This document shows, in pieces, positions 28,355 through 48,983 of a DNA stretch of 64,000 bases. Each line of letters starts with the position of its first letter. The first letter of the stretch is position 1. The notes beneath the pieces are model-generated. The model was not told the DNA's origin, made no database searches, and was given only the letters and a program-made list of their open reading frames with translations. Made by a program: the position numbers and the translations under genes. This stretch comes from a virus, in the IMG/VR virus record IMGVR_UViG_3300025141_000029, positions 93,734 to 157,733 of that record. One strand, given 5' to 3'.

Positions 28355-29179
28355 TTATTCTCCTTTGCTTCTTTGAAAATTGTTAAATTCTATGCTTTTT
28401 TCTAGCATTTCAAATATTATATCATTTTCTTTGAGAAAGTTTAATAATTCTATAGAATCTTTAGGCAAGCATTTACCTCCATATCCAAATTTTCCATCAG
28501 GACCTGGAACCATTGTATGTTGTTCTCCGACCCATTCTGCTCTTGCAAAATGTTCGCGAAAAGAATCATAATCTATATTTTCTTTTTCACAAAGATTATA
28601 TAAATAATTACAATAACTTACTTTTAACCCATAAAAAGTATTTCTTGCTAATTTTAGTAGTTCGACCTCCGACCAATTCTGTGTTTCAAAGATTTTCACA
28701 TCATGATTTCCCCTATAATCAAAAAAGGTCTCATAAAGATTTCTTACTTTCAAGGTATTTTCTTTTTTACCAGCCAGATAAAGCTCTTGTTGATTAACAA
28801 AATCTTCCATTGCGGTTCTTTGAGATAAAAACTCTGGATTAAAAACAATATTGTTTAGACGATAAAGTTGTGATAAAGTTTCACAGGTTCCAGCTGGAAT
28901 TGTGGACTTAATAACAATTACAGAATTACTATTTTGATTTTCCTTTATAAAATCCTGGATACACGATTCTACAATTGATATATCCAGGCGCCCATCTTTT
29001 AAATCCGTGGGAACATTAATAAAAATAACATCCGCATTATAGGCATTTCTTATGTGTTTAAGGGATTTATAGTCCGAGTTGAATGGGTCATATATGTTTG
29101 TCGGGAAAACGTCTTTAAGCTGTGCTGTAGCCTTTCCTACGAACCCGTAGCCTATTATTCCAATTGTTGTTTTGTCCAC
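28355..29179 (-). CDS. UDP-glucose/GDP-mannose 6-dehydrogenase family protein, short form (274 aa)
   Basis: NAD-dependent nucleotide-sugar dehydrogenase family, which oxidises the C6 alcohol of an NDP-hexose to a uronic acid. Visible motifs: Rossmann loop 'GIIGYGFVGKAT' at residues 7-18, 'STIPAGT' at 92-98, 'NPEFLSQRTA' near 114-123 and the catalytic-Cys motif 'GGKCLPKD' with C237. It stops at 274 residues, whereas full enzymes are about 390-450 aa. The C-terminal NDP-sugar-binding domain is therefore missing and the substrate is uncertain. It overlaps the upstream glycosyltransferase by 25 bases and is the last gene of the glycan island. Confidence 0.8.
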   Translation of the reverse strand: MDKTTIGIIGYGFVGKATAQLKDVFPTNIYDPFNSDYKSLKHIRNAYNADVIFINVPTDLKDGRLDISIVESCIQDFIKENQNSNSVIVIKSTIPAGTCETLSQLYRLNNIVFNPEFLSQRTAMEDFVNQQELYLAGKKENTLKVRNLYETFFDYRGNHDVKIFETQNWSEVELLKLARNTFYGLKVSYCNYLYNLCEKENIDYDSFREHFARAEWVGEQHTMVPGPDGKFGYGGKCLPKDSIELLNFLKENDIIFEMLEKSIEFNNFQRSKGE

Positions 29180-30006
29180 TCTTTGTACCTCTCAAAAATA
29201 TATTCTGGTATATCAACTTTTCCATTCGCGCATAAATATAAGACATGTGTTTTTAAAGGGTTCCAGTTTTTAGTATATCTAATTTCATCTTTTTCTGTTA
29301 CTGATGGTGTAGAAAATACGACATGGGGGGCGCCACATAAACTAGCTAGATGCATGGGGCCGGATGATGGTCCAAAAACAGCTTCACAATTTCTCAATAT
29401 ATCAAATAATTCATTAAGTGGTATATTTCTTAAATCATCTGTTCCCTCAATATATCCAGATTCTTTGATGGTGCCGATACATGCTATTTTTTTATCATCT
29501 TGTGATAACAGCTTAAGCAGTTTTTTCCAATTATCGAAAGACCAGTTATCTTGTTTTCTTAATTCTCTATTTCTTATATGAAAAATATAATCATATTTTT
29601 TCTCTCCAACATTGCCATATTTTTTGTATTTTGGCTTAATGTTTAGGTGTTTAAAGCTTACTTCTTCTGAATAATGTGTATATGGCGGAAAGCCAATTCT
29701 TCTAGGGGCGAATATGGTTGTATTGCTATCTACTATATCCTTGTTTTCATAAAGAATTTTTTTAGTATAAGAAGGCATATCTAATCCGTGCATAAAAAAA
29801 GAATCAGATAATCCTCCAGGTGGACTTATATCAATAAATTTTGTTGCGAAATCTTGATATAAAGACCGCGAGGATGGTCGACATAAAACTATTATTTCAT
29901 CAAAATGATCAGCCAACGAACGAATATATGCTTGCCAAGCAAATAATTCCCATCCAAATTCGCCAACCCATGGGCCGGCTATTAATCTTTTATTTGATTT
30001 CGTCAT
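29155..30006 (-). CDS. GT9-like glycosyltransferase (heptosyltransferase fold)
   Basis: 283 residues. The C-terminal half carries the GT9 acceptor/nucleotide motif 'FGPSSGPMHLASLCGAPHV' (about residues 205-223), equivalent to the D/S-x-G-x-x-H segment of ADP-heptose:LPS heptosyltransferases. An N-terminal 'PWVGEFGWELFAWQAY' motif is typical of phage-borne relatives. The protein is shorter than WaaC/WaaF (about 330-350 aa). It is expected to transfer an activated sugar, possibly the heptose-like product inferred for the 42-46 kb genes. It overlaps genes on both sides. Confidence 0.7.
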   Translation of the reverse strand: MTKSNKRLIAGPWVGEFGWELFAWQAYIRSLADHFDEIIVLCRPSSRSLYQDFATKFIDISPPGGLSDSFFMHGLDMPSYTKKILYENKDIVDSNTTIFAPRRIGFPPYTHYSEEVSFKHLNIKPKYKKYGNVGEKKYDYIFHIRNRELRKQDNWSFDNWKKLLKLLSQDDKKIACIGTIKESGYIEGTDDLRNIPLNELFDILRNCEAVFGPSSGPMHLASLCGAPHVVFSTPSVTEKDEIRYTKNWNPLKTHVLYLCANGKVDIPEYIFERYKEWTKQQLE

Positions 30007-30859: not shown

Positions 30860-30864
30860 TTATT

Positions 30865-33053: not shown

Positions 33054-33056
33054 ATA

Positions 33057-34997: not shown

Positions 34998-35902
34998 AGT
35001 ATTTTATATGCTTCTCGTAATCCATCTACTAATTTTATAAATTTGTAATCTTTAATTATAGATTTCATTTTCTTAGTCGAAATATCTTTTCGATGTTGAC
35101 CGTTGGGTTGGGATTTATCATACTTAATTTTTAGATGTGTACACCCAGTCGCCATGAGTCCTAGTCTTGCTATCTCGTCAATCTTTAAGTTTTCTTCTGC
35201 AGCTACGTTGAAGCTCTCATATATTTCGCGGTCAATCATAATTTTTAAAATTTGAGCCAAGTCCCGGGAATGCATAAGCTGTCTTATTGGGGTGCCGTCG
35301 CCAAATAAAACTATATGGTCCGCATCGGTTTCTACGGCCCTTTTAATCTTAGCAAGCAAAGCCAAAGGAAAATGACTCTTATTAGAATATTCTCTATTAC
35401 TTTCTCCATAAAGGTTGCAAGGGATTACATAATTATATTTTGTTCCATATTGTTTATTATAGGCATCAATTTGAACAGCCATCGATCTCTTCGCATAAGC
35501 ATAGAAAAAGTTATCCTGTGATGGCGGTCCATTATGTATTTCTGATTCATTTAGAGGATATTTGTCCATATCGGCTCTATCGGGGAACACACAACTACTA
35601 AGAATTGCAATGAATCTGTCAACTCTGTTTATTTGAGCGTGTTTGAGCAAGAGCGTGTTCATTAACACATTGTCATCGAAATAAAGTGCGGGATTTTTTA
35701 TATTGTCTTTAATGCCTCCAACATGAGCTGCGGCATGAATAATAATCTTAGGACTATTATTCAAAAACATTTGTTTTATATCATCCTCAACTCTCAAATC
35801 AAAATCATTGCGCGTAATATGCACAGCACGAGGAAACAGAGTTTTTAATTCTGTTCCAACCTGTCCTGCTGCACCTGTTATTAAAATTTCTTCTTGTTTC
35901 AT
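34994..35902 (-). CDS. GDP-L-fucose synthase / GDP-colitose synthase (ColC)-like epimerase-reductase
   Basis: Extended short-chain dehydrogenase, 302 aa. Motifs: 'ITGAAGQVGTEL' (NADP loop, 7-18), 'AAAHVGGI', 'SSCVFP' (catalytic Ser and Cys), 'YAYAKRS' (YxxxK), 'CNLYGESN' followed by 'SHFPLALL' (catalytic-His region), 'GDGTPIRQLMHSRDLA' and 'PNGQHRKD'. It would epimerise C5 and reduce C4 of a GDP-4-keto-6-deoxysugar. With gmd alone the product would be GDP-L-fucose; with the ColD-like dehydratase in the same operon, GDP-L-colitose is equally or more likely. Fcl and ColC are too similar to separate by eye. Confidence 0.85.
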   Translation of the reverse strand: MKQEEILITGAAGQVGTELKTLFPRAVHITRNDFDLRVEDDIKQMFLNNSPKIIIHAAAHVGGIKDNIKNPALYFDDNVLMNTLLLKHAQINRVDRFIAILSSCVFPDRADMDKYPLNESEIHNGPPSQDNFFYAYAKRSMAVQIDAYNKQYGTKYNYVIPCNLYGESNREYSNKSHFPLALLAKIKRAVETDADHIVLFGDGTPIRQLMHSRDLAQILKIMIDREIYESFNVAAEENLKIDEIARLGLMATGCTHLKIKYDKSQPNGQHRKDISTKKMKSIIKDYKFIKLVDGLREAYKIL

Positions 35903-35911
35903 ATTATTGCC

Positions 35912-36709
35912 TTATTTATATATTTTACCATCTTCTAAAATAGATTCAATTTTTGGACGTTTTGTTGGATCTATATAATCATAAATTAGAAGAATATCTT
36001 CTTTTTTGATTCCGGTTGGGCAGCCCCATGGATGTTGTTGGTTCCAGCGAGGAAATGGCACTCCCTTATCATAAACATTACTAGTTTTGATTAAATTATT
36101 TGGGGCGGCGAGGTCGGACAAGGTAGCTGGGTCTACAGAAGGAAGGCCTGCGGGGCTTACACAAGAAATTATAGTTGCGCCGTCATTTTGTGATTCAGGT
36201 ATATTTTTAATTTCGAAATCCCATGCTGTAAGATTTGGTTTTAAATATTTCTTAAAATATTCTTTTCTCCATATAGCGGGGTGTAAAGTAGTTCGATATG
36301 GCGCGTCGGGGGACAGCTGTACTATTCCTGCTTTATATTCAATCGAATAGGCATTCAAATGCGTGTCTAATATCGCTTTTTCTGCATTACTACAGCTTAT
36401 CTCCTTCTCTAATAATTGCATTCTTTCGACATCTACGTAATCAGTTATAAGCATGTCGCCCGCCATGGCGACAAAGTATTCTTCTTTAATATTATTTATA
36501 TAAGGTATTAGAGGATTAGTCCAATACTTTCCAAAATCACTCTGTTTTCCCAAAGAGACATAATCAAAATTATCCGGTAACGTGGGAAGATTTGAGTCAT
36601 CAAAACCCAATATGGTTACATCTTGATTTGGCCAATATTTATTGAACAAAATAGCATAAGGCGTAAGCAAATGTAAATACTGATCGCATGTGGTAACTAA
36701 AATTCGCAT
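35912..36709 (-). CDS. probable GT-A type glycosyltransferase
   Basis: 265 residues with a GT-A-like start ('MRILVTTCDQYLHLLTPY') and the central 'YFVAMAGDMLITDYVD' segment. That segment is the likely metal/nucleotide site (D-x-x-x-x-D rather than a strict DxD). 'TTLHPAIWRKEYFKKYL' and 'AWDFEI' near residues 135-165 resemble catalytic segments of sugar transferases in phage glycan islands. I know no characterised homologue. It ends nine bases before the ColC-like gene start. Confidence 0.55.
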   Translation of the reverse strand: MRILVTTCDQYLHLLTPYAILFNKYWPNQDVTILGFDDSNLPTLPDNFDYVSLGKQSDFGKYWTNPLIPYINNIKEEYFVAMAGDMLITDYVDVERMQLLEKEISCSNAEKAILDTHLNAYSIEYKAGIVQLSPDAPYRTTLHPAIWRKEYFKKYLKPNLTAWDFEIKNIPESQNDGATIISCVSPAGLPSVDPATLSDLAAPNNLIKTSNVYDKGVPFPRWNQQHPWGCPTGIKKEDILLIYDYIDPTKRPKIESILEDGKIYK

Positions 36710-36724
36710 TTTTTTATTCTTTGT

Positions 36725-37084
36725 TTAATTCTTGTTTTTGAAGCCTTTATATTGCTTCACATTTCCGTCATCAAATTTTTTGATATATTCTTTGTTTATA
36801 TGCGCATCTAAATATTGATTTATTGCTTTTGTTAATTTAGGTCGTCTATCTTTAAAACAAAAATCTAATTTTCTTTTTAAATCAAAAACTTCTTGAGGAT
36901 CATTAGATTCTGCGCATGCGTCTTCAATCTTCCACATACGAATGTGAAGAATGATATACTTTTCAAGCATCTCTGCGAAATTATCAGACCACTCTACGCC
37001 TTTAAAATGAGGCGGCTCTTTGTCAAATCTAGACTCAATTTCTTCTAATAAAAGTTCGCTAATTTTTTCTAATCTACTGCTCAT
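36725..37084 (-). CDS. small helical protein beside GT9 (DUF4254-like)
   Basis: 119 residues, mostly helical and charged. The region 'LHIRMWKIEDACAESNDPQEV' and 'RRPKLTKAINQYLD' recalls DUF4254-type proteins that sit in LPS core clusters next to GT9 heptosyltransferases. The assignment is by general pattern and weak. ATG overlaps the GT9-like gene stop (ATGA), so the two are translated together and may form a complex. No catalytic motif is visible. Confidence 0.5.
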   Translation of the reverse strand: MSSRLEKISELLLEEIESRFDKEPPHFKGVEWSDNFAEMLEKYIILHIRMWKIEDACAESNDPQEVFDLKRKLDFCFKDRRPKLTKAINQYLDAHINKEYIKKFDDGNVKQYKGFKNKN

Positions 37085-37974
37085 AAAGATACTCTCTCTA
37101 ATATATTATTTAATACTTCTTTTGCTGAAATGTTATCACATCCGCCAGGGGCATAAAATGTTTGGCCGTTATCATTGACCGGTTCTAAAGCCAGCAAATT
37201 TGTATTATGGTTTGGCAGCCAATTAGTCATTAAATTAATAGCTGGATGTGAATATGCCCCCATAACCCATTGTGCCCCACTATCAGTTCCTATAACTAAA
37301 CGCGATGCTAAAGCAGCTTTTACTTGATCAAAGTATGATAAGTGAGGATATGTTTTATAGCCATCTAAATTACTTAAAACCGGATCCCAGGGCATGCCAT
37401 AGTGATTCACCGTATATCCATTTAAAATTAAATTATCAATTAATCTATTCCACCATCGGGTCGACGGGGATCTGCCAGGGGATCCTGCAAATGGCCAAAT
37501 TGCTATGTTATTGTGATATTCTTCATCGTTTGTATTTTTAGACTTGGCATATGTAGAAGTTATCGCTGGTATGCCAGCGTCAAACCACCTATAAAGATGT
37601 GGCTTCATTTCATCTTCGGATAACACATCTTTTAGATCTGGTATTCCTGCCATATACGCAGTTTCTCTTACACACGATACAGTATTATACCAATCTGATG
37701 ACGAATGTTCCCATCCCTTTATTGAGGGTTCTAAGTTGATGTTACATTGTGATATCAATTGTTTATCATATTCTCCAAATTCATCCCATTCATCAGTAAT
37801 TTTGATTCTATCAATAAGAGGATGATTGAAATATAGGGGAGCACATTGAGAGCACTTTTTTTCTATTACCCAAAATTTATAACTACCGGGATATTTCTTT
37901 TCATAGTAATTGAGTATAGGTAGCCCCATTATTAGATCACCTATTATACCATAAACGGGGCCCCAGATTTTCAT
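37081..37974 (-). CDS. GT9-like glycosyltransferase (heptosyltransferase-type)
   Basis: 297 residues. N-terminus 'MKIWGPVYGIIGDLIMGLPIL' matches the 'GDxxxxxP' start of GT9 enzymes, with the conserved Gly-Asp near residues 11-12. C-terminal 'LVIGTDSGAQWVMGAYSHPA' contains the GT9 'GxDSGxxHxA'-like loop, with Trp in place of the usual His. The family transfers heptose from ADP-heptose to LPS core. Here it is flanked by a coupled DUF4254-like gene and an epimerase, fitting a heptose-type donor made elsewhere in the island. Confidence 0.7.
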   Translation of the reverse strand: MKIWGPVYGIIGDLIMGLPILNYYEKKYPGSYKFWVIEKKCSQCAPLYFNHPLIDRIKITDEWDEFGEYDKQLISQCNINLEPSIKGWEHSSSDWYNTVSCVRETAYMAGIPDLKDVLSEDEMKPHLYRWFDAGIPAITSTYAKSKNTNDEEYHNNIAIWPFAGSPGRSPSTRWWNRLIDNLILNGYTVNHYGMPWDPVLSNLDGYKTYPHLSYFDQVKAALASRLVIGTDSGAQWVMGAYSHPAINLMTNWLPNHNTNLLALEPVNDNGQTFYAPGGCDNISAKEVLNNILERVSL

Positions 37975-39050
37975 GTTAAATCGCCCTTTAAGTGAATATT
38001 ACAAAAATAATTATAACATGACAAAAGGCCATCTTTAAATCTATATTTGGGTGTATAGCCAGAAATAGATTTTACTTTAGATATATCTGGTTTTCGCCGA
38101 GTGGGCTCATTATCCGGATAGCCATCCGGATGTGGCTGTATTGAATAAGTAGAATCTTCTGGATTTATTATTGTATATGCTCTTTCGGTTATTTCTAAAG
38201 CAGATAATTCTTCATCTTCTGAGCCTACATTATAAATTTGGCCAAACTTATTAGATAATAAAACCTTGAACATATAAACTACAGCATCAGCAACATAACA
38301 ATATGTTCTCGTTTGTTTTCCATCTCCGTATACTGAAAACTCTCTTTTTTCTATCATAGCTTTACAAATATTTGGAATGATTCTACCATCATCAAAATTC
38401 ATAAGAGGGCCGTATAAATTAAATGGCCTTAAAACGTTAACTGGTATTTTATATTTATCATGATAAACATAACATAATGTTTCTAAAATATTTTTTCCAA
38501 TATCATAACAACTTCTGTTTCCGAATGTAGTAACAGAGCCGATATAATCTTCTTTAGTTGGAATATTTTCTGGATCCGGTGTACCATAAACTTCACTCGA
38601 AGAGAACATTAAAACTGATTTTGTATTTCTGATCTTAGCAAATTCAAGTATATTTTTTGTTCCAGTATAGGATACGTCCATTGTTTTAATCGGTACTTTA
38701 AGATATTTTTTTGGAGATGCGATGCCGGCACAATTAATAATATAATCAACTGTTTCTGCCTCTTCGTGGAGGCCCCTCGCTATAAAATCATCTAAAGGAT
38801 TACAAATATCATGATCTTCATAATCTATTGCTATAATTTTAATTAAATCTTCTTTCTCAAATTTAAATTCATTTAAAAAATTTAGAAAATTAGTAATTGT
38901 TTTACCTAAAAATCCTTTTGAGCCGGCTATTAAAACTGTCGATCCCTTGAGAATATTTAAATCGTTTTCCAAATGTTTATATATGTGTATATTATCTTTT
39001 TCTAAAATTCTAATTGTTTTCGTAGATTTCATGGTTATACAATCATCCAT
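37971..39050 (-). CDS. NAD-dependent nucleotide-sugar epimerase/dehydratase
   Basis: 359 aa extended SDR enzyme. 'VLIAGSKGFLGKTI' (about 39-52) is the NAD loop, 'SSSEVYG' holds the catalytic Ser, 'YDIGKNILE' the YxxxK pair and 'NVLRPFNLYGP' the substrate loop. The closest general match is the UDP-glucuronate decarboxylase / dTDP-glucose dehydratase group. HldD-like epimerase activity on a nucleotide heptose is possible but lacks specific support. About 35 N-terminal residues precede the core. It is coupled by overlaps to genes on both sides. Confidence 0.75.
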   Translation of the reverse strand: MDDCITMKSTKTIRILEKDNIHIYKHLENDLNILKGSTVLIAGSKGFLGKTITNFLNFLNEFKFEKEDLIKIIAIDYEDHDICNPLDDFIARGLHEEAETVDYIINCAGIASPKKYLKVPIKTMDVSYTGTKNILEFAKIRNTKSVLMFSSSEVYGTPDPENIPTKEDYIGSVTTFGNRSCYDIGKNILETLCYVYHDKYKIPVNVLRPFNLYGPLMNFDDGRIIPNICKAMIEKREFSVYGDGKQTRTYCYVADAVVYMFKVLLSNKFGQIYNVGSEDEELSALEITERAYTIINPEDSTYSIQPHPDGYPDNEPTRRKPDISKVKSISGYTPKYRFKDGLLSCYNYFCNIHLKGDLT

Positions 39051-39795
39051 ATATTCTTTTATAATCCAAATTTGCTTGTTCTAGTTTACATTCTTGATAA
39101 TCAATATTCATCCGGTGTTTATCTAGGGCCTCTTGGCTTATATTTTGTTCATCAAACACTCCGCGGCCTGCGTAGTGAATAATATGACTATTAAACCTGT
39201 TTGGGTTGCCATTCCATGGTTCACTAAACATTGTCATATGATTGAAGTGATAGGATAATGGAAATACCTTATAATTATTTTTTTTAATCTGATATCCAAT
39301 ATGTACATCATCCGTCCCGTGATCTGTATAAAAATTTCCATTAATTGGTTGAAATATGTCGCGATGACATTTTGATGTAACAAAAACACCAGTATTGATA
39401 TATCCCGAAGTCCACCCAATTTGTCCAAATAGTTGCTGAGCCTTCACCATCCAGTGTCGGCGGATGGCTGCCCGATTTCCTACATCTTCATAAACTGTCC
39501 CAATGTGGTCGTAAGGAACGTGTTCAAATAAATTTGGACAAGATGGTGTAATAAGTGTATCACCATCAAATTGAATTATTCTGTCATACTCTTCGTGAAG
39601 ATTGTAGTGTTCCATAATCCTAAAATGCCACAAGCCGTCGCCGCAGCCCGAGCGCGCTGCTTCGCAATTTAATGTCTCGTCTAGCAGCATAAAATCTGCA
39701 CCAACTTTTTTTGCATAATCTTTAAATATCGGATGAGTTAAAGCTGCCCAGCCTTTAACTTTGCTGTCTGCTCTGGTTGTTATTAGAAGTTTCAT
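39043..39795 (-). CDS. GT8-like glycosyltransferase
   Basis: 250 residues. 'YDRIIQFDGDTLITPSCPNLFE' contains a DxD-type metal site ('FDGDTL', residues about 74-79). 'GYINTGVFVTSKC' and 'HIIHYAGRG' follow, matching the GT8 order DxD, then NTGV, then HxxG. The donor is unknown. An AAGGAATAA Shine-Dalgarno region is not needed here because the upstream gene is 42 bases away. The gap 39796-39837 is AT-rich and may hold a weak promoter. Confidence 0.65.
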   Translation of the reverse strand: MKLLITTRADSKVKGWAALTHPIFKDYAKKVGADFMLLDETLNCEAARSGCGDGLWHFRIMEHYNLHEEYDRIIQFDGDTLITPSCPNLFEHVPYDHIGTVYEDVGNRAAIRRHWMVKAQQLFGQIGWTSGYINTGVFVTSKCHRDIFQPINGNFYTDHGTDDVHIGYQIKKNNYKVFPLSYHFNHMTMFSEPWNGNPNRFNSHIIHYAGRGVFDEQNISQEALDKHRMNIDYQECKLEQANLDYKRIYG

Positions 39796-39837
39796 TTATT
39801 ATTCCTTATTTTGTTTATTATTATAAATATTTTTTTA

Positions 39838-40476
39838 TTATTTAATGTTTTCAAATAGTGGCACTGTTTTTGGACCAAAGGGTCGCGGCTTCTCAATAAC
39901 CGTTACTCTGTGTACCTTGTTTTGTTGAATGAATTCATCAACAATTTTAACATTCTGTTCTCTGCAGAGTTCATCTAAGTTATAAAATCCGGCTGCGAGA
40001 TTCTCACTTATATTATGTCGTAGATCTCTTACTTTATCATCAATGGTAATGATTACTCCACCATCTTTTAGACTAGAAACCATCTTTTTAAAAGTTAGTC
40101 TGGTACCCCAGCTTTCTTGAAGATAGAAAACTCCAAACATAAAGATCACATCAAAATCTTTCTCTTTAAAATTCTGGAACTCTGTCCTAGAGAAGAGGAC
40201 ATTTTTTCGATGGTGATTTTCATTTATATCCCTAAATGCGTCGACGGCATGAATAGATTTTGCCCTTTCACTTAAAAATGATGTATATCTTCCATTTCCA
40301 CATCCTATATCAAGTACTTTACTTTCAGGTGTAAAATATCCTTCTATATGTGGCCATATCTCAGATTGAAATATTTCCATTGTGTTTAATGGATTTAGGG
40401 CTTCAAGGTCATTTTCCTGATATCTTTGTAGGCCCGTGCCTAGGATCGGTATTAAATTAACATTACTCTTATTCAT
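39838..40476 (-). CDS. SAM-dependent methyltransferase
   Basis: 212 residues, class I methyltransferase. 'SKVLDIGCGNGRYTSFL' (about residues 53-69) is motif I with the GxGxG loop. 'SIHAVDAF' supplies the acidic ribose-binding residue and 'KDFDVIFMFGVFYLQ' is motif IV. The substrate is unknown; position between a minimal aminotransferase and a GT suggests O- or N-methylation of a sugar. Overlaps the upstream gene by 8 bases. Confidence 0.75.
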   Translation of the reverse strand: MNKSNVNLIPILGTGLQRYQENDLEALNPLNTMEIFQSEIWPHIEGYFTPESKVLDIGCGNGRYTSFLSERAKSIHAVDAFRDINENHHRKNVLFSRTEFQNFKEKDFDVIFMFGVFYLQESWGTRLTFKKMVSSLKDGGVIITIDDKVRDLRHNISENLAAGFYNLDELCREQNVKIVDEFIQQNKVHRVTVIEKPRPFGPKTVPLFENIK

Positions 40477-41086
40477 TCTCGATTACCTCACATTTTTTAT
40501 AAAGTGGCATTGTTCTTAAATCGCGATATGGAGGATTTTCTCCTTGATCTTCATGATAATCCGGAAATACTTGTAACAACGTCAAACCTCTAGCAGCCTG
40601 TTCTGGAGTCATGTACATATTCCATCCGCATATTTCAATATCATCATCAATATGATCCCTGCCTTCATATCTAGCTAGCTTAAACCACTTGGCTGCGTTT
40701 AAATCATCGGTTAAAATCATGCCGCCTTTCCCTATCTTAAGATTTTTTTTAGTTTGGAATGAGATACACATATAAGACCCGGGGATATACATATTGGATG
40801 TAAATCTTTTGGCAGCATCATAAATTGGATAGGGCTCCAGTTGGTATATGCCCTTCCACTCATAATCTCTTAATTTAACAGTGCCGCCGGCGTGGATTAT
40901 AGTTTGAGGCACAGAAAGGTATGTTTTACAGGGGATTGTCACATCTTTGACCTTTAAATATTTGCAGCACATCATTAGTCCATCTGTACAATTATCCACA
41001 GCTATTGCATATTTTGACCCACAGTATTGAGCAATATTCTCTTCAAACATTTCTACGACGTGCCAAGGATTATTCTTTAATTTCAT
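40469..41086 (-). CDS. compact DegT/DnrJ-type sugar aminotransferase (205 aa)
   Basis: PLP-dependent aminotransferase fold reduced to 205 residues, about half the usual 370-400. The key residues are kept: 'IYDAAKRF' (Asp to the pyridine N), 'SFQTKKNLKIGKGG' with the Schiff-base Lys in register, and 'NMYMTPEQAARGL'. Start chosen at 41086 because its ATG overlaps the preceding stop as ATGA; an upstream ATG at 41152 would overlap by 70 bases. It ends right after the 'MTPEQAARGL' helix, so the C-terminal small domain is missing. It could be a true minimal enzyme or a decayed one. Confidence 0.65.
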   Translation of the reverse strand: MKLKNNPWHVVEMFEENIAQYCGSKYAIAVDNCTDGLMMCCKYLKVKDVTIPCKTYLSVPQTIIHAGGTVKLRDYEWKGIYQLEPYPIYDAAKRFTSNMYIPGSYMCISFQTKKNLKIGKGGMILTDDLNAAKWFKLARYEGRDHIDDDIEICGWNMYMTPEQAARGLTLLQVFPDYHEDQGENPPYRDLRTMPLYKKCEVIENE

Positions 41087-41787
41087 GTTCTTTCCGCAAA
41101 AAGTATAATTTGTTCTGGATGATGGAATGGTAGCCTTCCCAACACCTGGCAATTTCCGTAATACTCTGTTAAAACTTCTTCATAAACAGATATCTGGGAT
41201 TTCATATCTCCAATTATTGCATATTTGCATCGGGGAAGGAATTCTTCAAAAATCTTTTCCTGATATTCAACTGGCATTTCCGATATCGACATCCATGCCA
41301 AAAATAAATCATAGTCTTTAATCGCCTTATCCGCTTGCGGAAAGGAGGGGGCCCATCGTACATATGATGGATCCGAAACCTCCGCGGTCTCGCTAGAATA
41401 TAAATCAACTTTCTTATTGTTTTCCTCTAAAAAAACCTTTGTAAATTTTAACATCTCTTCAAATTCAACAATTGAATATTCTGTATCTGGTTCTAATTCT
41501 AAATATTCATTACATAGATTTCCATATGCTGCCCCGAACTCAATTATGCTTTGAGGTGGGGTGGGCAAAAGGTCTGTAATATTTTTGGCGCGCTCATACA
41601 TCTGCTTTGTATTTTCTCTAAGTGGAGATGGCACAAGCATTCTCATAACATTAGAATGTGCAAAATTAAATTCTTCATCTGCCGGAGTTTCGTTTAGGAC
41701 CTTTTTGATAGAAGCCCAAAAACTCTCGTCACAATCAACTCTATAATTTCTTAACAAACTTAAATTTCTTGATTTTCTATTACTCAT
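41083..41787 (-). CDS. putative sugar O-methyltransferase
   Basis: 234 residues. The region 'SIIEFGAAYGNLCNEYL' (about 79-95) is a class I methyltransferase motif I (ExGxxxG), with 'EYSIVEFEEML' following. Later 'DLFLAWMSISEMP' is the catalytic loop region. The overall pattern resembles the 'putative sugar O-methyltransferase' proteins of O-antigen and phage glycan clusters. Start ATG overlaps the stop of the 50-aa cupin gene (ATGA), and its own stop overlaps the next ATG, so it sits in a tight coupled chain. Confidence 0.65.
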   Translation of the reverse strand: MSNRKSRNLSLLRNYRVDCDESFWASIKKVLNETPADEEFNFAHSNVMRMLVPSPLRENTKQMYERAKNITDLLPTPPQSIIEFGAAYGNLCNEYLELEPDTEYSIVEFEEMLKFTKVFLEENNKKVDLYSSETAEVSDPSYVRWAPSFPQADKAIKDYDLFLAWMSISEMPVEYQEKIFEEFLPRCKYAIIGDMKSQISVYEEVLTEYYGNCQVLGRLPFHHPEQIILFAERT

Positions 41788-41936
41788 TTCCCCACTCTAT
41801 AAATTAAATCACCATCTTTGGAATATATTACCATACTTTTTCTAGATTGTATATAGAATACTTCATCTTTTATTTTATGATAGTGCCACGAACATCTCTT
41901 ATTTTTGACAAATTTAATTTCCAAAGAAGTCTTCAT
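41784..41936 (-). CDS. 50-aa mini-cupin
   Basis: A short gene between the HAD and methyltransferase genes. ATG at 41936 lies inside the HAD gene end and the TGA overlaps the next ATG (ATGA at 41784-41787). The protein contains 'RCSWHYHKIKDEVFYIQ' (residues 14-30), a clear cupin motif 1 (HxH, four residues, then E). The rest of the cupin barrel (motif 2) is absent, so it is half a normal cupin. Such cupins act as sugar isomerases or epimerases; at this size it might be a remnant or pair with the 139-aa cupin nearby. Coupled overlaps on both sides favour expression. Confidence 0.6.
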   Translation of the reverse strand: MKTSLEIKFVKNKRCSWHYHKIKDEVFYIQSRKSMVIYSKDGDLIYRVGK

Positions 41937-42234
41937 CTTTCATTCCTTTATCGTCGATATAAATGTCGCCGGCCGGCTTTCCTAATTTAACGCCATGAAA
42001 TTTGACACCCCAGCTTTTTAACTGTCTATCGGTAAAAGTATAAAATTCTGGCCATGCTTTGCTTCCGTCGTTATCATTTCGACCCATACCCCGGGCTGTA
42101 TAAAAAAATATTGTGTGTCCTTCGTCATAAAGTTCATTCACTTTTTTGATTCTTTCTTTAAAAGGGAGGGCCTCTTCATAATTTCCATCTGTTTGAGTAC
42201 AAATTGTGCCATCTATATCAAATACATAAGTCAT
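41914..42234 (-). CDS. small HAD-superfamily phosphatase
   Basis: 106 residues. HAD motif I is 'VFDIDGTIC' (D6 nucleophile, D8 acid), motif II-like 'FYTARGMG', and the C-terminal 'KPAGDIYIDDKG' supplies the Lys and acidic Mg ligands. It is a capless HAD of the kind found in capsule and LPS clusters. In a heptose-type pathway a GmhB phosphatase would remove the 7-phosphate after kinase action. This enzyme could take that place, although it is shorter than GmhB (about 190 aa). Start overlaps the transaldolase stop (TAATG). Confidence 0.75.
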   Translation of the reverse strand: MTYVFDIDGTICTQTDGNYEEALPFKERIKKVNELYDEGHTIFFYTARGMGRNDNDGSKAWPEFYTFTDRQLKSWGVKFHGVKLGKPAGDIYIDDKGMKDEDFFGN

Positions 42235-42902
42235 TATTTAATCCATTCTTCAAAATCTTTTAAAAAGCCACTTACAGATTCGTCTGTTTTTGGATGTTTC
42301 ATCGATTTTTGAATTATATTATAGCCGGCAGTCACAATATGGGAGCCGGCGCTCCATGCATTCTCTAGATCGTAGCTATTTCTAATGCTTCCTGCTATAA
42401 TTTCACAATTCAAATTATTAGAATCAATAAAATTTCGTACTTTTCTTAAAACTTTAAGTGGGTCTCCATCAGCATCAAAAAGCCTATTATAAAACAAAGA
42501 AACATATCTGGCGCCAGAAAGGGCCGCTAATTCCATTTGGGGAGCTGTAAAACAACAAGTACAATTAACTGGAATTCCTAAATTGGTTAATTCATTAATA
42601 ACTTGTAATTCTTCATAACCAACTGGTATCTTAATATTTAAGCCGCTGTAATTTAATTTTTGTATAATCTCCCTTGCTTGAGAAACCATCTCTTTCGGAT
42701 CTGATGCAAAAACTTCGACGCTTAATGGAGCAACGTTTTTATAATTTTTACAAAGACTTACAATTTTTTTAATATGTTCATAAAAATTTGCTTTTGGCTC
42801 TTTAGCTAGCAAAGAAGGGTTTGTAGTAACACCTTGAATTACTCCTTTGGTCATAGCATCACTAATCTGTTCTAAATTAGCTGTGTCTAAAAATAATTTC
42901 AT
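42234..42902 (-). CDS. talC: transaldolase, TalC/fructose-6-phosphate aldolase type
   Basis: 222 aa, the length of the short transaldolase/FSA family. 'MKLFLDTANLEQI' and 'GVTTNPSLLAK' open the barrel. 'NIKIPV' carries the Schiff-base Lys (K91). 'CCFTAPQMELAALSGARYVSLFYNRL' (shortened to its beginning: CCFTAPQ) and 'EIIAGSIRNSYDL' complete the signature. It transfers dihydroxyacetone units between sugar phosphates and can form sedoheptulose-7-phosphate. Cyanophage TalC is usually linked to pentose-phosphate flux. Here it sits between a cupin and a HAD phosphatase in a sugar-nucleotide operon, suggesting precursor supply. Confidence 0.85.
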   Translation of the reverse strand: MKLFLDTANLEQISDAMTKGVIQGVTTNPSLLAKEPKANFYEHIKKIVSLCKNYKNVAPLSVEVFASDPKEMVSQAREIIQKLNYSGLNIKIPVGYEELQVINELTNLGIPVNCTCCFTAPQMELAALSGARYVSLFYNRLFDADGDPLKVLRKVRNFIDSNNLNCEIIAGSIRNSYDLENAWSAGSHIVTAGYNIIQKSMKHPKTDESVSGFLKDFEEWIK

Positions 42903-43322
42903 TTAAAAATCCTCTATGTGTTTGTATGTCTTCCCATCTTCAACTATATGTGAATCACCATCATCATCTAAAGTAGAGAATTCGATAATTACTGTGTCTT
43001 CTATGGCAATTCTCATATGCATGAGCCCGGGGGGAATGTGAAATATGTCTCCGGAATTCATTAGGAATGACGTATTCTTTGCCCTTCCTATTCTTGTGCC
43101 TACTTTGAGTATTCCAGATTCAATATAATAAGATTCTTCTTTTTTAACATGATATTCCATACTGCTTTGAGTACCTTTTTTCATAAAAATTCTTTTTACA
43201 GTATATTGATCATTTTCGAAAAGAGTCTTCATGTTTCCCCAATATTTTTTCACCTCTTTAATAGGTCGTGATTTTGGAGGTAACTGTTGACGACCATATC
43301 TTATTTCATCACTTTTGTCCAT
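42903..43322 (-). CDS. cupin, mannose-6-phosphate isomerase type II-like
   Basis: 139 residues forming a single cupin barrel. Motif 1 is 'SSMEYHVKKEESYYIESGIL' (E-x-H with a downstream E; the usual first His is replaced by Glu). Motif 2 is 'IFHIPPGLMHMRIA' with P-x-x-x-H. This resembles the C-terminal domain of mannose-1-phosphate guanylyltransferase/phosphomannose isomerase proteins. The reaction is unassigned; a sugar-phosphate isomerase or metal-binding regulator is possible. It overlaps the AraD gene by 14 bases and abuts the transaldolase. Confidence 0.75.
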   Translation of the reverse strand: MDKSDEIRYGRQQLPPKSRPIKEVKKYWGNMKTLFENDQYTVKRIFMKKGTQSSMEYHVKKEESYYIESGILKVGTRIGRAKNTSFLMNSGDIFHIPPGLMHMRIAIEDTVIIEFSTLDDDGDSHIVEDGKTYKHIEDF

Positions 43323-43998
43323 AATATTTCTGGCTTCCGTGTTTTCTTAAAAAATGCTTATTTAACAAATTTTCATCGAATTCAACAAGCTTATTATAGC
43401 ATAAGTTTATTGTTTTGTACGCCATTTCAGCAATATTTTCTAACACGACCGCGGTCTTCAACGCATTGTCTAAGCTATCGCCCCATACAAATACGCCATG
43501 AGAAGGCGAAAGCGCTGCAGGCATTTCCCGAGGAGATATATTTTTTTCTTTAAAATATTCTACAATTTTCAAACCAGTGTTTCTTTCATATTCATGCTCT
43601 ATTTCTTGCGGACTTAAATCTCTAACAACAGGTACCTCGCCATAAAAATAATCAGCATGCGTTGTGCCCATACAAGGAATACTTATCTTTGCTTGAGCAA
43701 AAATGGTACAATACTTAGAATGAGTATGGATTATCGCTTTAACTTCTGGAAATGCTTTATACAAAATAAGATGTGTTGGAGTATCAACCGAAGGTTTTAG
43801 GCCGCTTAGATGGATTTCTGTCTTTAAATCGATCTTGGATAACTTTTCCTCTGTTAAGTCGCTAAAAGGTACCCCAGAGGGTTTGATATATATATTATTA
43901 TCGTCGAAGCGACAGCTAGCATTTCCCCATGTAGAGATAACCAATTTTTCTTCTTTTAATCTTTTATTAACTTGAACTAATTTATGTAAATCATTCAT
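43309..43998 (-). CDS. araD: L-ribulose-5-phosphate 4-epimerase (AraD), class II aldolase fold
   Basis: 229 aa. The AraD/FucA fold is shown by 'STWGNAS' (22-28), 'KPSGV' (39-43) and 'HTHSKYCTIFAQA' with zinc ligands H91 and H93. 'GTTHADYFYG' (111-120) is the hallmark of AraD rather than fuculose aldolase, and 'SHGVFVWG' gives the third ligand H167. It interconverts L-ribulose-5-phosphate and D-xylulose-5-phosphate. In this operon it may tune pentose-phosphate precursors for an activated sugar, or act on a related keto-sugar phosphate. Coupled to the kinase gene by an ATGA overlap. Confidence 0.85.
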   Translation of the reverse strand: MNDLHKLVQVNKRLKEEKLVISTWGNASCRFDDNNIYIKPSGVPFSDLTEEKLSKIDLKTEIHLSGLKPSVDTPTHLILYKAFPEVKAIIHTHSKYCTIFAQAKISIPCMGTTHADYFYGEVPVVRDLSPQEIEHEYERNTGLKIVEYFKEKNISPREMPAALSPSHGVFVWGDSLDNALKTAVVLENIAEMAYKTINLCYNKLVEFDENLLNKHFLRKHGSQKYYGQK

Positions 43999-44756
43999 AT
44001 TTTTCCATTAATATAGTCAGCTGCATATTTATTGGCTTTTTCTGGATTTTCAAAAGATAGAAATGCTGCGTAAAAACAATCGCCGGCACCAATTAGGTTC
44101 TTTGGATTATCAATTGCGTTCGTCGGATATATAATTCCATTAAGTTCGCATCCCTTTTCCCCTTTTGTGATTAATATATTTTCTCTTCGCTTGAACGAAT
44201 CAGCCTCGGCCTCGTTACATATTAGATAATCCATATTCATATATTTCGTAAAATTGGATTGATGGCTTGATATTTGAGAAGCTCCAAAAGTTATCGCTTT
44301 GCTTTCCAAGCTTCTATTAATCATTTTTTGTGAAATTAAACCACAGCGATAATCTGAAAATGCTATTACATCAAAATTATTAAAATCTAAATCAATATCT
44401 AAATTCAAATTTTCTTTATTTGTATCATTAACTTGTAAATATTTATATCTCTCATTTCCGTGTTTCACAAAAAACCTAGATTTAATATTTTCTATATCGC
44501 TACTTAGATTTAAAAACGTCAACTTATTCTTTTTAAGAAATTTATATTCAGAATCTTTAGACATGCTGCTGGCGAATGTTACATCTAAGCCAAAAGAAGC
44601 AGCATATTTGGCTACATTTGAGGCGCCTCCAAAATTTATTTCTTTATCAATATATGAGGTTTTCATTGTTGGAGATTCTAAAGATAACCCAACAGCCTCA
44701 AGATTGAAATTTTTATCGATAATTGTATCGCCGATAATTAAGATTCTTTTTTCCAT
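43995..44756 (-). CDS. PfkB-family sugar kinase, HldE N-domain type
   Basis: 253 aa PfkB (ribokinase) fold with the features of the heptose-7-phosphate kinase half of HldE: 'RILIIGDTIIDKN' start, 'SLESPT' in the place of 'SPEAPV', 'NFGGASNVAKYAASFG' (41-56) and the catalytic 'IGAGDCFYAAF' with D226. It is shorter than the HldE kinase domain (about 310-320 aa). It would phosphorylate C1 of an aldose phosphate. Its ATG overlaps the RpiB-HldE-C gene by 19 bases, so the two halves of HldE are split but co-translated. Confidence 0.8.
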   Translation of the reverse strand: MEKRILIIGDTIIDKNFNLEAVGLSLESPTMKTSYIDKEINFGGASNVAKYAASFGLDVTFASSMSKDSEYKFLKKNKLTFLNLSSDIENIKSRFFVKHGNERYKYLQVNDTNKENLNLDIDLDFNNFDVIAFSDYRCGLISQKMINRSLESKAITFGASQISSHQSNFTKYMNMDYLICNEAEADSFKRRENILITKGEKGCELNGIIYPTNAIDNPKNLIGAGDCFYAAFLSFENPEKANKYAADYINGKI

Positions 44757-45607
44757 GAACTCAAACCATAAATTTTCTTAATAGTATTTGTTGTTGAATA
44801 ATTTTCAACAAGAGAATAGATTTTTATTTCGATATCTTCAGATACACTATCTCTTTCGCGAACCTGTTCTTTTGTCCATTCCCCACCTTTAACCAAAATA
44901 TCAGGCATTAAACTTTCTCTTAAATCATGAGGATCAATATCATCAAAAATAATTACCTGATCAACTACATTTAAAGATTCTAAGATTTTTTTCCTATCAT
45001 TTTGATTATTAATTGGACGATTATCGCCTTTTAATTTTTTGACTGACATGTCTGAATTGATACCAATGATCAATTTATTACCCAGGCTTTTAGCAAAATT
45101 TAAAAGTTCAATATGGCCGGTATGAAGAATATCGAAAACACCATTTGTAAAAACAATTTCTTTTTCTTTGTTAGACAATTTTTCAATTCTTTTGACATGT
45201 CGGCCTTGTCCAAATTCTGTTTCAAGCCAAAAATTTAATATTTCTTTTGCTTGAGGATATGGAGTAATCCAACTACCCAAACATAAAATATTCGAATCAT
45301 TATGCTCGCGACATTTTGGCGCCGTAAATTGATTGTGTACCAACGCAGCTCTTATTTTTTCATTTCGATTAGCTGCGATGCTCATGCCGACGCCGGTGCC
45401 ACATATCAAAATACCTTTATGTACATCACCCGAAGCAACAATATGAGATAACTGATTAGCATAATCTACATAATCTACTTTAGTTTTACTTTCGAAGGGC
45501 CCTATATCAATGGTATCAAATCCTTTTTCTTTTAAAAATATATGCAGTTCTTTTTTTAATTCCACGCCATTATGATCTGACGCCAATAGAATTGTTTTAT
45601 TTTTCAT
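44738..45607 (-). CDS. RpiB-type sugar-phosphate isomerase fused to HldE-type nucleotidyltransferase
   Basis: Two-domain fusion, 289 aa. Residues 1-140 are RpiB: 'LLASDHNGVELKK', 'VDYVDYA', 'GILICGTGVGMSIAANR' with catalytic C69, and 'CREHNDSN' with H102. Residues 148-289 match the adenylyltransferase half of HldE: 'VFTNGVFDILHTGHIELL' (HTGH at 162-165), 'IGINSD', 'LKGDNRPIN' and 'DILVKGGEW'. The fusion implies that the isomerised aldose phosphate becomes a nucleotide sugar, with RpiB in the place of GmhA. Start set at 45607 (eleven-base overlap with the upstream gene); an in-frame ATG at 45625 is also possible. Confidence 0.85.
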   Translation of the reverse strand: MKNKTILLASDHNGVELKKELHIFLKEKGFDTIDIGPFESKTKVDYVDYANQLSHIVASGDVHKGILICGTGVGMSIAANRNEKIRAALVHNQFTAPKCREHNDSNILCLGSWITPYPQAKEILNFWLETEFGQGRHVKRIEKLSNKEKEIVFTNGVFDILHTGHIELLNFAKSLGNKLIIGINSDMSVKKLKGDNRPINNQNDRKKILESLNVVDQVIIFDDIDPHDLRESLMPDILVKGGEWTKEQVRERDSVSEDIEIKIYSLVENYSTTNTIKKIYGLSSWKKES

Positions 45608-46438: not shown

Positions 46439-47713
46439 TTATAGTATTTCAATTTCGTCTAATTTACTTATCCATTCTCGTTCTTCTCTCGAAGGTAAAA
46501 ATTTCTCAATTAAAGAATTTATTTTTTCATATTGATTCTCTTTCGAAAGATTTTTTAAGAGATGTTTCTGAAGTTGTTTTGCTTGTTTTTTAAACCTTCC
46601 ATGATCTCTATAGATCTCTCTCATTCGAATCTTGAATGAGCCTTGCTCTGGAAAACACCACATTGAATCTTGTTGAATTACGCCATCCCATACTGCTTCT
46701 TTTTGAATTGGCGCCAATGAATATTCAACTTTGGCAAACATAGCTTTATTTTTAATTTTATCTTTTTTATCTTTTGTTGGCATATGAAGAAAATCTACAT
46801 AACCGCTCCAATCAGCAGCAACTATTGGTAAGCCCTCATACGCAGCTTCAAACATAGGTAATCCAAAGCCCTCTCCATGGGTTGTTGTTAGAAGAGCTTT
46901 TATTTTTGAATTACGATAAAGCTGATGTATTTCTTGATCTGTCATATCACCATGAAGAAGATATACTTTACATTTTCTATTTTTATAATCTTCTTTAGAT
47001 AAGATATTTTTTAACATTTCCAAAGTATGATTTCTATCCATTAAAGAATTTTTAGCAAAATTCGTTTTTAAAATTAAACCAACTTCTTGATCAATAAATT
47101 CTTCAACAAACCATTGTATACAATTTACAATATTTTTTCTAGGACTCCATTGTGCGACGGCCAAAAAATTAAAATCAGTTTCTAGATTTAAACTTAAATC
47201 AACATCTTCAAAAGATTTGACAGGATAAGATACAACTTCAATTGGAGTCATACAACGATAATCGGGTATAATTTGTCCTGTTTCTTTTACAGTTGCCTCA
47301 TATTGTGTATTCTCATACACCTGTTTTGAATGATTTGATGGAACAATAATTAAATCCATTATATTTCCATTTTCAATCCAAATAGGTGCGACTTTAGTTG
47401 TTTCAATTCCTGCTGTAACTCCAATATTGATTGGTGCTAATTTTTCCCATTCATTGGGGATAGATACTTGTATAGATATATCAAAAACCGCAGTCTTGTT
47501 GTTGACTACCAATGTTGTTTTTTGTATTATGGAATCCAACCATTCTCTTTCGTCATCATTATCGACAACCCAGCCAGTATGACCCCATCCTAGAGGAATT
47601 ATATATAGATCTAGCTTATCTTCCATAGTTCTTAAAGCCCGTAATAAAAATCGAACATGTTCTCCATATCCAGATCTTGTTAAAACTGGTCCTCTTACTA
47701 ATACTTTTGTCAC
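46439..47713 (-). CDS. glycosyltransferase, GT4 family
   Basis: 424 residues, GT-B fold. 'GPVLTRSGYGEHVRFLLRAL' is the Gly-rich N-terminal motif and 'NFLAVAQWSPRKNIVNCIQWF' is the start of the C-domain. 'ALLTTTHGEGFGLPMFEAAYEGLPIVA' carries the E-x7-E nucleotide-binding motif (EGFGLPMFE). A retaining transferase on a polysaccharide is expected. It is two bases from its neighbours on either side. Confidence 0.85.
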   Translation of the reverse strand: MTKVLVRGPVLTRSGYGEHVRFLLRALRTMEDKLDLYIIPLGWGHTGWVVDNDDEREWLDSIIQKTTLVVNNKTAVFDISIQVSIPNEWEKLAPINIGVTAGIETTKVAPIWIENGNIMDLIIVPSNHSKQVYENTQYEATVKETGQIIPDYRCMTPIEVVSYPVKSFEDVDLSLNLETDFNFLAVAQWSPRKNIVNCIQWFVEEFIDQEVGLILKTNFAKNSLMDRNHTLEMLKNILSKEDYKNRKCKVYLLHGDMTDQEIHQLYRNSKIKALLTTTHGEGFGLPMFEAAYEGLPIVAADWSGYVDFLHMPTKDKKDKIKNKAMFAKVEYSLAPIQKEAVWDGVIQQDSMWCFPEQGSFKIRMREIYRDHGRFKKQAKQLQKHLLKNLSKENQYEKINSLIEKFLPSREEREWISKLDEIEIL

Positions 47714-47714
47714 T

Positions 47715-48983
47715 TTATTGCCTCACTTCAATTAATTGCCATGACTTATAATTTTTTCTTGTTTTCCAAGAGCCATAATTTTCATGAATTTGTTCTAATA
47801 ATTCAGGCCAACGGGCAGAATAATTTTCAAAATTATAATTTTCTTCGACATGTTTCCGTCCCAAAAGTCCAATTTCTTTACGTTGTTCTCTTGTTAGTTC
47901 ATAAATTTTTAGAAGTGCATTAATGAAATCATTTTTAGTAATTCGGTCTTCATATATATATGGTACTTCTTGCGATCCAATGATGGCTTTTGAACTAGGC
48001 TCAATGCCTACTCCAAACCAATTTTTACCATCTGTAACTTGCTCTTGAAGGCCGCCAGTCATATTAACAATAATCGGCGTTCCACATGAAAGAGACTCTA
48101 AAGTAGCTAAGCCAAATCCTTCAGCATCAGATATATTGATAGTACAGTCGGCAAAATTATAAATCTTAGCTAAAATCTGTGGATCGACAGGGTGTGTTGA
48201 AAAAGTTACCTCTCCATTAACCAATCCAAGCTCATTTATTATTGCTGCCAAATCTTGACCAGCACCATCTTTTGGATTAGTATGCATAATCAAAGATGCT
48301 TTATCGTGGCCAATTTTATCCAAAAATTCTTTAAACCAATAAATCAAAGTTCCACTTTGTTTTCTCCTAGCATTTCTATTATTCCAAAAGAATACAGTCT
48401 TGTTTTCCAATTGAGGCATCGCCTCCAACATGAACTCTTTAGTTTCTTGTTCATCCAAAGGTTTAAAAATTTCGCTAGGTACTCCATGTGGAATATAGTG
48501 GCTTTCGACATCTGGTGATACAGTTTTCACAATATCATCAGTCACTTTCGAAATAGCGGCTATCACATCTGTAGAATCATAAAAGACTTTATTAAACTTA
48601 GGATATGGATAGTTATCCCATACATGATAATAGACCATTGGCATTAAACTGCGAATTTCATTTTCAATTTCCCAAAGCCATCCAAAAAATCTAGGATCTG
48701 TCATAAACCAAAGAATGTCTGGTTTATGACTTCGTATCGCAGATCTGATCATATCATGATCACCATATCCATCAACTGGAAATATTAACCAGTCTTCACC
48801 ATATGGATCAACTTTTCGCGGAGTATAATCTGCATGTTTTATTGCTCCCCCAAAACACACAAATTGAAATTTCTTAGTTTTTAAACAAGAATCAATCATA
48901 TATTTTGTTTGTGTACCGACGCCGGAAGGAGATAAAGGATGATCAGATAATACAAGAACTTTAATTTTTTTATTTTCTTTCAT
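47715..48983 (-). CDS. glycosyltransferase, GT4 family
   Basis: 422 residues, GT-B fold. 'VLVLSDHPLSPSGVGTQTKYM' is the N-terminal loop. 'VFFWNNRNARRKQSG' and 'NISDAEGFGLATLESLSCGTPIIV' hold the C-domain E-x7-E motif (EGFGLATLE). It is the first gene of the glycan island in the direction of transcription, six bases after the nuclease gene, and pairs with the adjacent 424-aa transferase of similar design. The donor sugar is not known. Confidence 0.85.
   Translation of the reverse strand: MKENKKIKVLVLSDHPLSPSGVGTQTKYMIDSCLKTKKFQFVCFGGAIKHADYTPRKVDPYGEDWLIFPVDGYGDHDMIRSAIRSHKPDILWFMTDPRFFGWLWEIENEIRSLMPMVYYHVWDNYPYPKFNKVFYDSTDVIAAISKVTDDIVKTVSPDVESHYIPHGVPSEIFKPLDEQETKEFMLEAMPQLENKTVFFWNNRNARRKQSGTLIYWFKEFLDKIGHDKASLIMHTNPKDGAGQDLAAIINELGLVNGEVTFSTHPVDPQILAKIYNFADCTINISDAEGFGLATLESLSCGTPIIVNMTGGLQEQVTDGKNWFGVGIEPSSKAIIGSQEVPYIYEDRITKNDFINALLKIYELTREQRKEIGLLGRKHVEENYNFENYSARWPELLEQIHENYGSWKTRKNYKSWQLIEVRQ

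Follow-up and report, generated by a model that had tools for sequence, protein, structure and literature searches.

The DNA analysed here is a window of 64,000 nucleotides, bases 93734-157733 of a 157,733-base IMG/VR virus record (IMGVR_UViG_3300025141_000029), which carries on its minus strand, at 41914-45607, an operon of six genes coding for an RpiB::HldE-C fusion, an HldE-N-like kinase, an AraD, a cupin, a TalC and a mini-HAD protein. We read this cassette as a dedicated route to a nucleoside diphosphate (NDP)-sugar, the likeliest product being a heptose that differs from ADP-D-glycero-D-manno-heptose, and we see an even chance that the six genes form one pathway module which, in the course of infection, leads from central sugar phosphates to a nucleotide-activated sugar used to build surface glycans. 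A first reading of the DNA letters (the original prediction) had proposed a self-contained NDP-sugar pathway encoded in one overlapping operon; the six-gene cassette supports this, and all the genes it named were found on the minus strand, with families assigned by Pfam and NCBIfam profiles. The genes run from 45607 down to 41914 and overlap or abut, with successive overlaps of 19, 4, 14, 0 and 1 nt. The phage is T4-like, because the record encodes, outside the window, the T4-type major capsid protein gp23 (PF07068) and the window encodes a T4-type baseplate wedge protein, a late sigma factor-like protein and PhoH; a T4-like gp23 was present in 6/6 carrier virus records tested.

The fusion gene starts with an ATG at 45607, with an alternative upstream TTG start at 45625 from which residues are numbered here. 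Its RpiB domain (residues 12-150) matched PF02502 (E 1e-47) and TIGR01120 with 155.9 bits, above the cut-off of 138.65, and its nucleotidyltransferase domain (residues ~157-285) matched TIGR02199 over residues 159-285 with 160.4 bits (E 2e-47), below the curated cut-off of 181.5. The AlphaFold2 model (mean pLDDT 86) was matched by Foldseek to RpiB (3he8, 2vvr) and to Burkholderia pseudomallei HldC (5xf2). The same architecture was found in 39 nonredundant full-length homologues, which rules out an artefact and, with the profiles and the model, bears out the predicted didomain of an RpiB and an HldE-type nucleotidyltransferase. The catalytic residues Asp17, His18, Cys75, Thr77, His108 and Asn109 and the C-terminal phosphate-binding Arg142 and Arg146 are conserved in 39/39 fusions. 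Two other positions are equally invariant and differ from stand-alone RpiB proteins, which, having been collected largely by the pattern ICGTGVGM, do not amount to a random sample: Trp119 (39/39), where 69 of 71 stand-alone proteins have Arg, and Asn19, just after the DH motif, where 68 of 70 have Ala or Gly. Trp119 aligns with Arg113 of MtRpiB, a phosphate-binding residue that partly covers the pocket and whose role has moved to Arg39 in the hexose (C6) enzyme LacAB (PMC3755991). As Trp119 replaces this arginine, the RpiB domain probably does not act as an ordinary ribose-5-phosphate isomerase, despite passing the TIGR01120 cut-off. To take Trp119 as proof of a longer substrate was judged too strong, a smaller C4 substrate being conceivable too; the loss of the arginine argues more safely against ordinary ribose-5-phosphate binding than for a C7 substrate. 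The domain shares with LacAB/RpiB isomerases the fold and the catalytic Cys, Thr, His, Asn and Asp, but differs from them by the Trp, the Asn after the DH motif and the attached nucleotidyltransferase.

In the nucleotidyltransferase domain, the HxGH, KG..RP, Arg211, KGG and STT motifs are kept in 37-39 of 39 fusions, the canonical Asp of KGG-Asp is replaced by Glu (Asp249 to Glu, 39/39) and Arg256 is invariant. Cross-kingdom heptose nucleotidyltransferases (HENases; Tang et al. 2024) with an HldE-C-type domain have been reported from viruses too, and two reviews that summarise this work (PMC11573728, PMC11461863) describe mono-domain, kinase/nucleotidyltransferase and isomerase/kinase/nucleotidyltransferase architectures; the RpiB/nucleotidyltransferase didomain falls outside those listed there. 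The Arg of the (F/L)XXGRSTT motif marks NTP-promiscuous enzymes (PMC11573728). By contrast, the residue preceding STT is Tyr in 33 of the 39 fusions and never Arg, which would fit a narrower nucleotide choice. A phosphatase, reported absent in viruses according to the same reviews, is present in the cassette as the HAD protein.

The kinase matched TIGR02198 with 60.2 bits (E 1.7e-16), far under the curated cut-off of 345 bits, and among PDB entries its best match is the heptose-7-phosphate kinase HldA (4e84), so that both kinase and nucleotidyltransferase are HldE-related, as predicted. Its C-terminus is short, a trait common to its relatives. The catalytic Asp of the PfkB GAGD motif and the K-x-R motif are present in 41/41 sequences and the Arg of RISPEAP (Arg23) is replaced by Gly in 39/41, in a comparison with 11 reference rows, some of them redundant. 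AraD scored above the NF006047 cut-off, and the family profile gave 296 bits against E. coli AraD; in E. coli numbering, each residue of the Zn His triad, Asp120 and Tyr229 is kept in 33/33 sequences and His218 in 30/33. Ser75, which we take to be the second phosphate-pocket residue of the E. coli enzyme, is replaced by Val in 28/33, the references having Ser in 28/29. TalC is of the transaldolase type, with Phe137 (34/34), Glu63 (33/34) and the Schiff-base Lys91 (34/34), and its closest solved relatives are transaldolases; FSA carries Tyr131 and Gln59 at the Phe and Glu sites (PMC13259622). In view of these residues, the prediction that TalC supplies sedoheptulose-7-phosphate (S7P) appears sensible. 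The mini-HAD protein retains DxD, Thr46, Lys86 and Asp95, in line with its proposed role as the pathway phosphatase. Judged from these alignments, every cassette enzyme keeps its catalytic residues, but the substrate-side residues of RpiB, nucleotidyltransferase, AraD and kinase depart uniformly from those of canonical relatives.

Fusions were sought in other genomes, as the original prediction had recommended for viruses. In IMG/VR, 8 close full-length fusions were found, and a profile search brought the number of contigs carrying one to ~50; tblastn of the fusion against 50,697 named phage records gave RpiB-only or nucleotidyltransferase-only matches and none covering 80%. Among GTDB genomes, the whole fusion is present on 9 contigs, from an archaeon-labelled metagenome-assembled genome (MAG), a Prochlorococcus single cell, Armatimonadetes, Longimicrobiales, Doudnabacteria, Acidobacteria, Taylorbacteria (two) and Kaiserbacteria. 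The fusion order, which the original prediction did not know from bacteria, thus does occur in them (Patescibacteria, Prochlorococcus and others), but is missing from the architectures listed in the two reviews (PMC11573728, PMC11461863). Three further candidates among 60 genomes of the Acidobacteria phylum, with frames of ~300 aa, were not fusions. The order fusion, kinase, AraD, cupin, TalC, HAD is exact in most viral loci, and flanks are wholly different between groups (L001-L004 and L005-L008, for example); since dozens of contigs repeat the order in full, chance does not account for it. A search with the cupin only recovered 52 viral loci, five of them on contigs outside the fusion list; four of the five carry the cassette and the fifth (L309) has kinase, cupin and TalC at the point where the contig is cut off. 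Cupin and HAD form a single protein on the Doudnabacteria contig. In a tree with 35 stand-alone RpiBs, the RpiB domains of the fusions group in a single clade (SH-aLRT 99). The Prochlorococcus copy nests among viral copies in this tree, which suggests exchange of the fusion between viruses and hosts; its contig also encodes a P-loop ATPase (Pfam AAA_31) that by eye resembles an exopolysaccharide tyrosine kinase.

On five cellular contigs (G001, G003, G005, G007 and G008), from genomes holding 1-3 GT9 matches each, GT9 genes are found no more than ~4 kb away from the fusion, and in virus L001 one lies directly upstream of the cassette, so that the predicted GT9 association holds in six loci. 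The genomes of G003 and G004 encode elsewhere an HldE-C above the curated cut-off; because this canonical HldE coexists with the cassette, the cassette probably makes another product there. A GmhA was found neither in carrier virus record G000 nor in the five others searched, and most cellular carriers lack one, which is weak evidence as the MAGs are incomplete.

In the pathway that we propose, TalC would produce a C7 ketose phosphate (S7P), which AraD, where present, may epimerise at C4 through a retro-aldol reaction. The RpiB domain, the cupin or both would convert the ketose phosphate to an aldose phosphate, the kinase would phosphorylate C1, the mini-HAD would remove the terminal phosphate and the HldE-C domain would join the sugar-1-phosphate to a nucleotide, the resulting NDP-sugar then being used by a GT9-type or other transferase. 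The chain length is presumably that of a heptose, and the stereochemistry may be unlike that of D-glycero-D-manno-heptose: if the RpiB domain kept the C2 outcome of its family, as with ribose-5-phosphate and galactose-6-phosphate, the product would be gluco-, or galacto- with AraD, instead of manno-. We tentatively put forward, at less than even confidence, a specific form of this proposal, in which the cassette is spread by phages and makes a previously undescribed NDP-heptose (gluco-, or galacto- with AraD, for example) or an NDP-octose, the fusion of an RpiB-family isomerase with a nucleotidyltransferase replacing GmhA together with the PMI-like cupin. Several observations weigh against the proposed pathway. 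The RpiB domain passes the NCBI cut-off for ribose-5-phosphate isomerase and AraD retains nearly all residues of L-ribulose-5-phosphate epimerase, both being compatible with pentose chemistry; some cassettes lacking AraD show no marked matching change in the fusion; the viral GT9 matches are weak; and most cellular carriers are incomplete MAGs, in which gene absences and binning are uncertain. Several lineages (L098, L103/L111 and L129) have lost AraD or have something else in its place, and no other AraD was found in the virus records lacking it, so that AraD may be either dispensable, host-supplied or product-modifying. RpiB residues tracking its loss, as a hint to the AraD product, came down to position 65, which was unconvincing.

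The cupin, and not RpiB, might instead replace GmhA by converting S7P to an aldoheptose-7-phosphate, with RpiB, AraD and TalC acting upstream to provide or reshape the acceptor or ketose (making, for example, an aldose-phosphate acceptor for the transaldolase), and with a heptose or even an octose as product; we hold this for somewhat doubtful. The cupin model (AlphaFold2 pLDDT 93) resembles by Foldseek the metal cupins D-lyxose isomerase, KdgF and phosphomannose isomerase (PMI). In other Patescibacteria, related cupins form fusions with an HldE-type kinase, which comes second in L315 and L317 (cupin-kinase) and first in L316 (kinase-cupin); GmhB-type HAD genes recognised by eye (L315, L316, L318) and HldC-type nucleotidyltransferase genes (L315, L317, L318) lie near some of them. 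In the genomes with these fusions, no PF13580/GmhA was found beyond weak matches inside frames of 598-644 aa, which are probably GlmS-like; the kinase-cupin fusion is therefore a candidate non-orthologous replacement of phosphoheptose isomerase, and the cupin of the cassette may be an S7P isomerase. These loci share with the cassette the HldE-type kinase tied to a PMI-like cupin and the HldC-type nucleotidyltransferase, but no RpiB, AraD or TalC was found adjoining them and their kinase is nearer canonical HldE. Directly downstream of the six-gene cassette, L004 (11682-14031) and L095 (after 12675) carry a second HldC-kinase-mini-cupin set without RpiB, which suggests two activated sugars per phage; in L004 it is followed by a GT9-like gene without Pfam match. 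However, none of the papers searched linked a cupin directly to S7P, and the covalent tie of RpiB to the nucleotidyltransferase suggests that RpiB acts on the pathway's own intermediates. Open-access searches on RpiB-HldE fusion, cupin and heptose, or GmhA in Patescibacteria returned nothing relevant. The predicted substitution of GmhA by RpiB is thus plausible, in that a substrate other than ribose would agree with the missing phosphate-gating Arg, but the case for the cupin is just as good.

An NDP-pentose as product seems rather unlikely. D-xylulose-5-phosphate would be converted by AraD to L-ribulose-5-phosphate and by RpiB to an aldopentose-5-phosphate, followed by C1 phosphorylation, 5-dephosphorylation and nucleotidyl transfer, TalC merely feeding the pentose pools. 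The RpiB and AraD families do act on pentose phosphates and the AraD catalytic residues are fully kept, but the Arg113 clamp is lost from all fusions, Ser75 of AraD is mostly Val, pentoses need no transaldolase, and the HldE-type kinase and nucleotidyltransferase with the GT9 linkage point to a heptose. We regard the canonical product, ADP-D-glycero-D-manno-heptose, as improbable. The cassette resembles the canonical pathway (GmhA, HldE or HldA/HldC, GmhB) in its sequence of reaction types, its HldE-related kinase and nucleotidyltransferase and its GT9 linkage, and most carriers lack GmhA. It differs in that GmhA (a SIS-fold protein, of which no homologue was found in the carrier virus records searched) is missing, an RpiB-type isomerase is joined to the nucleotidyltransferase, the operon includes a PMI-like cupin, AraD and TalC, an EcbF/BcbF-like HAD stands in for GmhB, and substrate-side residues are changed. 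The coexisting HldE in G003 and G004 and the uniform changes in active-site regions (Arg23 to Gly in the kinase, Asp249 to Glu and Arg256 in the nucleotidyltransferase) speak against this product, which would also leave AraD without a role. Finally, talC is a common cyanophage metabolic gene, but it is very improbable that TalC, RpiB and AraD serve only to strengthen the pentose phosphate pathway and are unrelated to the glycan genes beside them, given that RpiB is fused to a nucleotidyltransferase and that viruses and bacteria alike inherit the set as a whole.

Table 1 Features of the cassette, its surroundings and related loci (window positions unless a locus is named)
Feature	Position	Strand	Basis or remark
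RpiB::HldE-C didomain, RpiB/LacAB-type sugar-phosphate isomerase and heptose-1-phosphate nucleotidyltransferase-type domain	44738..45607	-	Pfam/NCBIfam, Foldseek, 39 nonredundant homologues
HldE-N-like PfkB kinase, probable sugar-phosphate C1 kinase, 253 aa	43995..44756	-	TIGR02198, HldA 4e84, GAGD Asp
AraD-type class II aldolase fold, L-ribulose-5-phosphate 4-epimerase-like	43309..43998	-	NF006047, Zn and catalytic residues
PMI-like metal cupin, candidate sugar-phosphate isomerase/epimerase	42903..43322	-	PF01050/PF00190, AlphaFold2 model, Foldseek
TalC-type transaldolase	42234..42902	-	PF00923/TIGR00875, relatives 3r8r and 1vpx, conserved residues
Capless mini-HAD phosphatase, EcbF/BcbF-like	41914..42234	-	TIGR01689, HAD-SF-IIIA, relatives 9iqw/1xpj
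Remnant of second (mini) cupin	41784..41936	-	~36 of ~117 residues align to intact copies
Upstream gene (GTx), conserved upstream neighbour in L001-L004	45597..46436	-	no Pfam or NCBIfam match
GT4-family glycosyltransferase upstream of cassette	46439..47713	-	PF00534
GT4-family glycosyltransferase upstream of cassette	47715..48983	-	PF00534
GT9 (heptosyltransferase family)-like gene, same glycan island	29155..30006	-	PF01075 27.6 bits, cut-off 22
HldE-type kinase/PMI-like cupin fusions	L315:4999-6363, L316:5642-7048, L317:6688-8034		Patescibacteria genomes without recognisable GmhA

The original prediction had spoken of cupins in the plural and of two GT9-like genes. One cupin is intact; the second is a mere remnant of a mini-cupin found intact in L090, L101 and L004. 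The first GT9-like gene was confirmed by its Pfam score, and the other (37081-37974) has no Pfam match. The window contains at 28355-41152 a large glycan island with GT9, a DegT aminotransferase, a GDP-mannose 4,6-dehydratase, a B12-binding radical SAM protein, epimerases, methyltransferases and a shortened UDP-glucose/GDP-mannose dehydrogenase-like gene; the DegT-like open reading frame (ORF; 40469-41152, 227 aa, judged by eye) is probably truncated. Elsewhere, two giant ORFs (575-9226, 2883 aa, and 13166-21460, 2764 aa) probably code for structural or tail proteins, the first giving no match in a PHROGs scan. The G+C content rises between 22000 and 26500 to as much as 0.45 over ORFs 22394-23743 and 23743-26469 (~0.35 elsewhere), and the 908 aa ORF 23743-26469 has no PHROG match. 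Two lone plus-strand ORFs (52128-52868 and 62107-62718) in this mostly minus-strand window exhibit lipoprotein-like N-termini with a lipobox-like Cys.

If the proposed pathway is true, the cassette would be a recurrent, phage-carried and largely complete route from central metabolism to an activated sugar. Its nucleotidyltransferase would have an architecture outside the published classification, and the lack of GmhA in Patescibacteria would find a non-orthologous solution. The cassette would also be a testable origin for unidentified sugars on the surfaces of cells modified by phages, and would open a new way to rare NDP-sugars.

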